A stretch of DNA of 64,000 bases from Imbricaverruca yamaguchii (Eukaryota; Arthropoda; Thecostraca; Neoverrucidae): assembly GCA_034440575.1 (NCBI GenBank), contig JAOTOL010001615.1, forward strand, positions 1,761,001 through 1,825,000, given 5' to 3'. Below are positions 42,701 through 62,514 of this stretch, one piece after another. Each line of letters begins with the position of its first letter. Position 1 is the stretch's first letter. Position numbers and translations under genes: made by a program. The notes under the pieces are model-generated. The model ran no database searches and was not told the origin of the DNA. It was given only the letters and a program-made list of their open reading frames with translations.

Positions 42701-45700
42701 GTCGCCGATTCCGGGGAGTTCCCTATCCGTCTACTATTGTCCGTGGTATTATGTTGTAGAAGCCAGCGGTGAATAGGTTTCTTTATGGGACCCAGTTCCA
42801 TCGCATGTTACGGTTTCCTGCGCGGACCTTGGCACACTCACTCAGCGTAGTCGTGGGCCATGCGCTTCCGCCGATTGGTGCGGCCGGATGGCGCCAGAAG
42901 CGGTGCCGAAGCTGGGTCGACTTCGCTGGGGGGCTGATCAAACACGGGGAACTGTTCCGCTCCCGTGTCGTTGACGAAGACGTGCTCGAAGGAACTGGAG
43001 TAGTGGGTGTCGTCGTCAGAACTGAAGTATTCAGAAATGTGACCGCCTGAGCTATAGTCGCCCTTCACGGCGGTCAGACAGTGGTCAGACTGACTAAGCC
43101 CAGCCTGCTCCATCATCCACAGTGGTCAGAATCATAGGCGTAGGAACAGGGGTAGCCATGACCCACCTACTTCTAAAGATTATGGGGGGCTGGCAACAAT
43201 GCTAGCTGACCCTCCCACATTTGAGACATTTACATTTCCTAAAAAGCAGCATGCACACATTTGAGTATGCGAAAAAGAACTCCCTGCGATCCATATATAA
43301 GCAAAAGCTGCACATATCACAACGTAGCACTTTCACTCACACCACTCGGGACATTTCTAAATTCCGTGGCCCTCCGACGAAACAGTGTGGGCGGCGCCCT
43401 TAGCAGTGATCGTGCATAAGCTTCGTCGGAAACCACCCAATATATAAACAAGCATCGTAGCGTTTCATTTTTTAAGTCATGCACTCTTGGACACAACCTT
43501 ACCACAATGTAGCTCATTCAGGATTTAATGTAATGTAACATATGTATGGATATTCACTTATCTCATGAATAGACTATGAAGCAGATAATGTGCCGTCCTT
43601 GATAAAATACATTCATACTAAAGTTTCACTGCTGTTCTTTGACTGTCGGCATATTTAACACTGATTTTTAATGTTGCCTGCAGTATACAATAATGAAGAC
43701 TGAAGGCAGTTACGTAATACAATCAAGGTAAGACATGCAATTCGCAGGTGCAAGTTCTTTGCGGATGCTTGCCATGTTATCTGACAAGGCACATCGTGCG
43801 CATAGCAACTGACCCGAGTGGATCTTTAGCTGGGTAATTTCCTGGTGGCATTGACAGCACGTCAAACATTTAATTCAAATTATGTCATTCAACAGAAATT
43901 GTTCCGTCACGTGGTGGGCTCATGACATGCGCCATAATCTCCCCTTAGCAAAGATAATATATATATATTGACCGGACGTCCACTTGGTGTGTCCGGTCTA
44001 GATATTTCCATCATGTTGACATTTGTTCCCAAGTGTGCAACGTTATTAACACTAAGGAGCCATTTTAAACTCAATATTGTCACACACCCCCCATCAGCCG
44101 GAAGTCAATCAGACCGAAGTGCAAGCAGACCAAAGTGCCATCAGACCTAAGCTCAAACATTGGGCCTATTGGCTTACACTATTTGAAACTTATTTGGTGG
44201 CAGCTTAGGGCACCAAGGTCATGTCCTTTCCCATCGATACCAAGTGAAACTCATGGTGTTTTTTATACTGGAATGTTATTTCCTTGCGCGTGATGGCTTC
44301 AGTCGCTTGCTTAAATAACATCTCCATGGATAAGTGACGGAATACCCTACAAGGACCATGTTTGAAGAGCCTTTAACCCGTCCAGTCTCGGGGTCTTCAA
44401 CCGCCCTCCTCAGGTTTTTCGCAGATAGCGCACGAACGGCGCGGGGCAGCGCGCCCAAATTTTGCATACATTTTCCCACATCAATCTGACATGCTGATTG
44501 AAATTTTTTATGTCAGGTCATCTAGGGTTAACGAGCTAGTCAAAGTCACCTCCACCTCCACCTCACCTCCAAAAAATGTTCAACTGGTCGTCACACTTTA
44601 ACAGATACATATATTTTAATGACACTTTCAGCATTTGCTTGTCTTTACGGATGCAACAAAACGTACGTTTTGAATATTTCATATTTTTTCCGTTTTTGAT
44701 TACATGTAAATTTTGCGTATTTGCCAAATTGCAGTTCAAATAGAGGATTCCGGCTAAAGTAAGCATTTTGTATTAGGACACGTTGACTTCCAACAACGTT
44801 TCTCTGTCTGCTCTACCCACTGGAGAAGGAAAATTAAAGAAAACTTGAAAACTGAAAATTGTGGAATAAAAAACATATTTTGGGGGCGGGGGCAAAAAAA
44901 AACTATAGCCCTGGTCGATTTCGCTGTCCTTTTCTCCTTCCCAATACATTTTTTTCATATATCCCACAAAATGAACTCCCCAGAGTCAAAAACATAATAT
45001 AAGTCGTAAAAAGTCGTGAAAATCTAGCCCCTCTGGTGACGTCGCTTTTGTGGGGGAAATTGTTTTGGAGGATGGACCCGGCCCCTACTCGTCGAGCGCT
45101 TTCCGATGACATCTCTTTCGTTTTCGTGTCATGCTTAGTTTGGATTTTAGATGGGGTCTCCATCCGCGCCCCCACCGAGACTGGGTGTGAGGATTTGACC
45201 GGAAAGACGGCGCGGGTTAAGCTCCCCAAAGCACCCAGCGCCGAATAACATGCGAATATTTTGACATTCAAGCGCCTTTCCTGTCTTATGACAGCACCCA
45301 TACATCCATTCAAATATGACACGAACATGTGGACGAACTCACTTGGATTCACTGCTACTCCATGATTCCGATCCAGACCTGGAATAACCCCACGTTTATG
45401 TTATTCTGAAAGTGTGCCCGAGTATATCTAGATATTATGGATGTACAATACTCGGAAATAGACATATATATGACTTATATATATATATATGTAAGAAGGC
45501 TTACATTTTTCGGCACCAAACGTTTTATATATTTTTCCATCCGAACAGGCCGCGAGACGTCCAGCCATATCCCGGCCACCTTCCCCTTCCCTTACAAATA
45601 TTTTCCCTGGAAGCCAAAGCAAACGCGACTGGCGCCAGCGCGAAGACCAGAGGGCGGCTCCGGCAACAACATCCGGGCGAATCCGAGTAATGGCCCGGCA

Positions 45701-62514: not shown

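Follow-up and report, generated by a model that had tools for sequence, protein, structure and literature searches.

Introduction

On the minus strand of the window (the whole stretch of 64,000 nucleotides analysed here) lies a run of very short segments bounded by splice-like sites, which recur in tandem and can be read through without a stop. This poses the question whether the segments are microexons of a single gene that grows by internal duplication, or copies of a repeat that happens to look like one.

Results

Genomic setting

The minus strand contains a single open frame for PEX12 at 8122-9198 (Pfam E 4.7e-32). The best two of its 22 protein hits (7996 candidates scored) are from Pollicipes pollicipes (64% identity) and Amphibalanus amphitrite (59%), while the third reaches only 34%. 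Judged by this one gene alone, the window appears to be barnacle-like and is treated here as part of a cirripede genome. A HUS1 exon was detected on the plus strand near 24.1 kb (Pfam E 4.6e-22), with a further HUS1 match near 18.8 kb that falls below the Pfam cut-off (E 4.8e-4). A 20-bp minisatellite (22323-24098) adjoins the match near 24.1 kb. The plus-strand ORF at 5465-5839 contains VRPVLNYRELN, which we take to resemble a reverse transcriptase motif, and has no Pfam match. Rfam at its gathering scores and ARAGORN returned no match anywhere in the window.

Anatomy of the B and A segments

On the minus strand, from 45343 to 62514, a script search recovered all seven 27-nt segments (B) and all seven 36-nt segments (A) of a preliminary description of this DNA, each at its reported position (Table 1). 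Every segment has an AG acceptor (13 CAG and one AAG) and is in phase 2-2. The donors are GTAAGT in all seven B, and GTGAGT in six A with a single GCGAGT in A3. Joined, the segments form 441 nt that encode 147 residues and are stop-free in frame 1, so that the splice sites, phases and open B-A-B reading of the preliminary description stand as given. The 147 residues include 64 serines, 33 acidic residues and 14 tryptophans, and contain no lysine, arginine or cysteine. They also contain 24 S-x-x-D/E sites, a pattern that we take to be of the CK2 type, and because of these sites phosphorylation of the predicted stretch is plausible.

At the B acceptors (48888-62514), five of the six units listed have two more in-frame AG sites downstream, which would yield exons of 24 and 21 nt. 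In B of unit 4, only the 21-nt one of these extra sites is kept. Such tandem acceptors could allow one or two residues to be removed.

Table 1. Positions of the candidate exons, the tandem units and the HUS1 matches in the window
Feature	Position	Strand	Details	Source
B7 candidate microexon	62488..62514	-	27 nt, phase 2-2, GTAAGT donor	
A7 candidate microexon	62205..62240	-	36 nt, phase 2-2, GTGAGT donor	
B6 candidate microexon	60445..60471	-	as B7	
A6 candidate microexon	60180..60215	-	as A7	
B5 candidate microexon	58088..58114	-	as B7	
A5 candidate microexon	57861..57896	-	as A7	
B4 candidate microexon	55846..55872	-	as B7	
A4 candidate microexon	55611..55646	-	as A7	
B3 candidate microexon	54000..54026	-	as B7	
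A3 candidate microexon	53208..53243	-	36 nt, phase 2-2, GCGAGT donor	
B2 candidate microexon	51603..51629	-	as B7	
A2 candidate microexon	50800..50835	-	as A7	
B1 candidate microexon	48888..48914	-	as B7; AAG acceptor	
A1 candidate microexon	45343..45378	-	as A7; A0 of the preliminary description	
Tandem units with B-A pairs	43766..63177	-		self-comparison, unit alignment
F candidate exon	42842..43021	-	180 nt, phase 2 in and out, GTGAGT donor	exon scan
G candidate exon	35732..35963	-	232 nt, phase 2 in, phase 0 out, GTGAGT donor	exon scan
Weaker candidate	44753- or 44810-44667	-	open, phase 2-2	
Weaker candidate	44386-44351	-	open, phase 2-2	
Weaker candidate	40178-40062	-	open, phase 2-2	
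Weaker candidate	39082-39053	-	open, phase 2-2	
Weaker candidate	38213- or 38234-38151	-	open, phase 2-2	
HUS1 matches, overall span	18757-24360	+		Pfam

The B-A pair belongs to a tandem genomic unit

In a self-comparison of the window (matches over 250 bp, among the matches listed), the B-A pairs sit inside a tandem genomic unit. Successive B segments are 1846-2715 bp apart, and outside the exons the units are 0.813-0.958 identical to one another in an automatic alignment, for which the last unit was stitched together from pieces. Stretches without a match, near 44.4-45.2 and 45.5-48.3 kb, break up this last unit. All fourteen segments of the proposed microexon array are thus present, but as tandem duplicates they do not provide independent evidence. 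Self-comparison and unit alignment rule out fourteen independent exons, and the segments therefore count as one B-A pair.

At the far end of the window, 76 bases (63925-64000) match an internal segment of the unit with 72-75% identity, partly within a short tandem repeat, and no other match to the unit was found at 1e-5 in 63200-64000. This 76-base match suggests that the array may continue beyond position 64000.

Two repeats were observed within the array. A 16-bp minisatellite (GGTCAGACTACACAGT) recurs across the units (49093-63177) and may have favoured unequal exchange. The last unit also harbours, in non-matching sequence, one copy of a dispersed element (45710-47311), which forms an inverted pair with 14731-16312 (81% and 89% identity in two pieces).

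Reading frame and chance expectation

The array could be an intronic or intergenic tandem repeat that is non-coding, in which a chance pair of splice-like, frame-compatible sites in the ancestral unit has been copied along. We doubt this explanation but take it seriously. In line with it, minisatellite and AT repeats are abundant in the units. A second reading frame, with a 2-nt lead (frame 2), is likewise open across all 14 segments, which also fits a non-coding repeat and contradicts the earlier claim of a single linking frame.

The chance expectation points in the same direction. Here, we counted pairs of non-overlapping, frame-compatible, microexon-like sites of 15-60 nt with GTRAGT donors. 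Of 326 overlapping 2.25-kb segments taken from both strands of 1-43000, 14 contain such a pair, as do 30 of 300 dinucleotide shuffles of one unit. When both acceptors are required to have at least seven pyrimidines at -17 to -4, as in A of unit 5, the counts are 5/326 and 10/300, respectively. A unit with two compatible sites is not a rare chance event. Among the six units examined (unit 1 was left out), the plus strand has no such microexon-like sites, and units 2 and 3 each have one extra minus-strand candidate besides B and A. A of unit 3 is missing from the list of sites because of its GC donor.

Variation among the copies

In frame 1, the copies differ by two synonymous and nine nonsynonymous changes and no stop, where neutrality predicts 20% synonymous, 72% nonsynonymous and 8% stop. 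A comparison of synonymous with nonsynonymous change had been put forward as a check on the array. The ratio of 2:9 is the neutral one, so ordinary purifying selection is not visible, as would be the case for a non-coding repeat. The claim that substitutions keep the frame holds insofar as none of the 11 changes creates a stop, but this outcome has a chance probability of 0.38, or of 0.51 once the types of change are matched.

Read in frame 1, the nine amino-acid changes are conservative, with a mean BLOSUM62 of 0.67 (first test, P 0.0032, and 0.0087 without stops; change type matched, P 0.012, and 0.024 given no stop). This mean was reached by 179 of 9104 (2%) random pairs of intron pseudo-exons and, among 35 open intron windows of 63 columns that overlap one another, by 1. 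In frame 2, the type-matched test gives P 0.25. Conservatism confined to frame 1 argues against a non-coding repeat. It also bears on the idea that the segments belong, as exons, to a transcript that is non-coding or 5' untranslated, or that frame 2 is the frame in use; the open frame 2 would permit this, but with the result of the frame 2 test we consider it highly improbable.

Exon and splice columns together are less variable than intron columns (12/81 versus 250/873, Fisher P 0.004), again contrary to what a non-coding repeat would lead one to expect. Relative to their local flanks, the difference for the exon columns is not significant (10/63 versus 114/500 variable, P 0.14), which the non-coding repeat would readily explain. 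Splice columns taken alone are variable in 2/18 cases (P 0.076). In a ranking by windows of the unit alignment, variation is as low as that of B in 88 of 882 windows and as low as that of A in 308 of 819. All these tests of variation and conservatism are small and share data, and their P values are uncorrected for the several statistics and frames tried.

Codon usage agrees better with a non-coding repeat. Under a codon model trained on PEX12 only, the array scores -67 over 146 codons with a GC3 of 0.34. PEX12 itself has a GC3 of 0.73 and the candidate exon F one of 0.76. On the whole, the variation among copies, taken with the matching phase of the candidate exons F and G downstream, lends moderate support to coding by the array in frame 1.

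The same data bear on a further scenario, in which the gene is real but only one or a few pairs are spliced in and the remaining copies are decaying intronic passengers. The neutral substitution ratio, the GC donor of A3 and the AAG acceptor of B1 would fit such decay, as would the Y-to-S, N-to-S and final S-to-N changes, which are limited to the end copy A1. Set against this, all 14 segments are free of in-frame stops, exon length changes and AG losses, even if the absence of stops is about half likely by chance, and we regard the scenario as improbable.

Candidate exons downstream of the array

Between 25 and 64 kb, we scanned the minus strand for exons, using a codon model whose training set comprised PEX12, a HUS1 exon and G. 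Five segments pass: G (52.5), 30996-30759 (22.8), F (17.6) and a pair of short segments (13.4 and 10.7). The score of G is inflated because G belonged to the training set, and segment 30996-30759 starts within a minisatellite. F and G are the passing segments nearest to the array. With the PEX12-only model, a sliding scan lists G and does not list F, which when scored singly reaches 15.3 over 60 codons.

A1 would join F in phase, and F would join G in phase, with G entered in phase 2. If F were left unspliced, an in-frame TGA would follow directly. The start of F has a composition in keeping with the array, and this match in both phase and composition speaks against a non-coding repeat and supports a join between array and F. 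The score of F is the third of five, and a match of phase, which chance would give in one of three cases, carries little weight. The preliminary description had exons C to F continuing in phase. F matches the phase and passes the coding score, but C-F had been given without coordinates and just F and G pass. The weaker open phase-2-2 candidates between A1 and G (Table 1) were not accepted, none being among the five passing segments. Joined, array, F and G form 284 residues with no stop, and it is possible that G continues the same gene as the array.

Homology and literature searches

A protein search with the array and F found no homologue among 7989 candidates sharing the most words (127-404 residues), in agreement with a non-coding repeat. 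F alone found none among 5 candidates (about 185-588 residues). In a Pfam run over PEX12, F, G, the array and eight other ORFs of the window, the array matched just HUN at 0.25, below its cut-off. G has no Pfam family and a best PDB match of 0.18; its single-sequence AlphaFold model (pLDDT 66.7, pTM 0.50) gave a best fold match of E 7.8. For F and G together, there is no Pfam family and the best PDB match is 1.4. Assignments of F to XendoU (Pfam 0.091) or ribosomal L5 (PDB 0.93) were rejected as chance level. Among the matches listed in a literature search on barnacles and microexons, no title concerned an array of this kind in barnacles, and the one paper that combined the two subjects deals with Na+/K+ ATPase.

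Discussion

Weighing these observations, we lean towards a minus-strand barnacle gene with a phase-2 microexon cassette that was duplicated internally, the array leading into F and perhaps into G. Such a gene would hold a cassette of two microexons, the 27-nt B and the 36-nt A, both in phase 2-2, which would have been duplicated in tandem, with breakpoints in the introns, to at least seven copies. The symmetry of the exons means that every duplication would add 21 residues in frame. The product would be an acidic stretch with serine and tryptophan, probably disordered, which runs into F and perhaps G. All copies may be in use, pairs may be skipped and the stretch may have a function of its own. 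It is likely that one gene might in this way give rise to an acidic stretch, rich in serine, whose length can be adjusted.

Two papers describe the schistosome MEGs as composed of short symmetric exons, no longer than 36 bp, which can be left out of the transcript with no frameshift (PMC8293314, PMC5825161), and about 80% of the coding sequence is placed in exons of this type (PMC5825161). All fourteen array segments, known here from sequence alone, resemble them in being 27 or 36 nt long, within the 6-36 bp of MEG exons, and in phase 2-2. Compared with the about 80% given for MEGs, 441 of 853 nt are microexonic in the model of array, F and G, whose 5' end lies beyond the window. MEG products are secreted or membrane-anchored, and the N-terminus of the model's product likewise falls beyond the window. 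Unlike the MEGs, the array is found in a barnacle-like genome, a different phylum, has no homologue in the searches made and repeats one exon pair in tandem.

A second comparison is with the bicycle genes of aphids, which are insects. These genes have many small internal exons, almost all in phase 2, and their proteins contain CYC motifs; the megacycle gene apparently evolved by internal tandem duplications and in M. sacchari comprises 118 exons, with 15 repeat units (PMC9168663). The exons of the array model are likewise small and entered in phase 2, as is the case for the 14 candidate microexons, F (180 nt) and G (232 nt). Unlike the bicycle proteins, the array has no cysteine and thus no CYC (cysteine-tyrosine-cysteine) motif, and unlike in megacycle its unit consists of two microexons, with copies 81-96% identical outside the exons. 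The array is a member of neither the MEGs nor the aphid bicycle and megacycle genes, but is built similarly and, if transcribed, would work similarly. In titin PEVK and similar arrays, serial small in-frame exons provide an adjustable low-complexity region. The likeness to titin PEVK lies in the serial small in-frame candidate exons, and the composition differs.

One may go further and regard the expanding array as a length dial, an extension that we put forward tentatively and consider rather unlikely. Here, skipping of pairs and differences in copy number between individuals would alter a phosphorylatable Ser/Glu/Trp stretch in steps of 21 residues. The expansion would be recent and perhaps ongoing, and would give a crustacean its own, independent equivalent of the microexon variation of MEGs.

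Gene prediction easily overlooks exons of 27-36 nt. If the array is not transcribed, it is a caution that copying in tandem can turn a single chance pair of splice-compatible sites into an array that looks impressive. If it is transcribed as read, it would extend microexon-based, frame-safe repeat expansion beyond schistosomes and aphids to a crustacean, in an array young enough for the copy number of an exon pair to be watched as it evolves.
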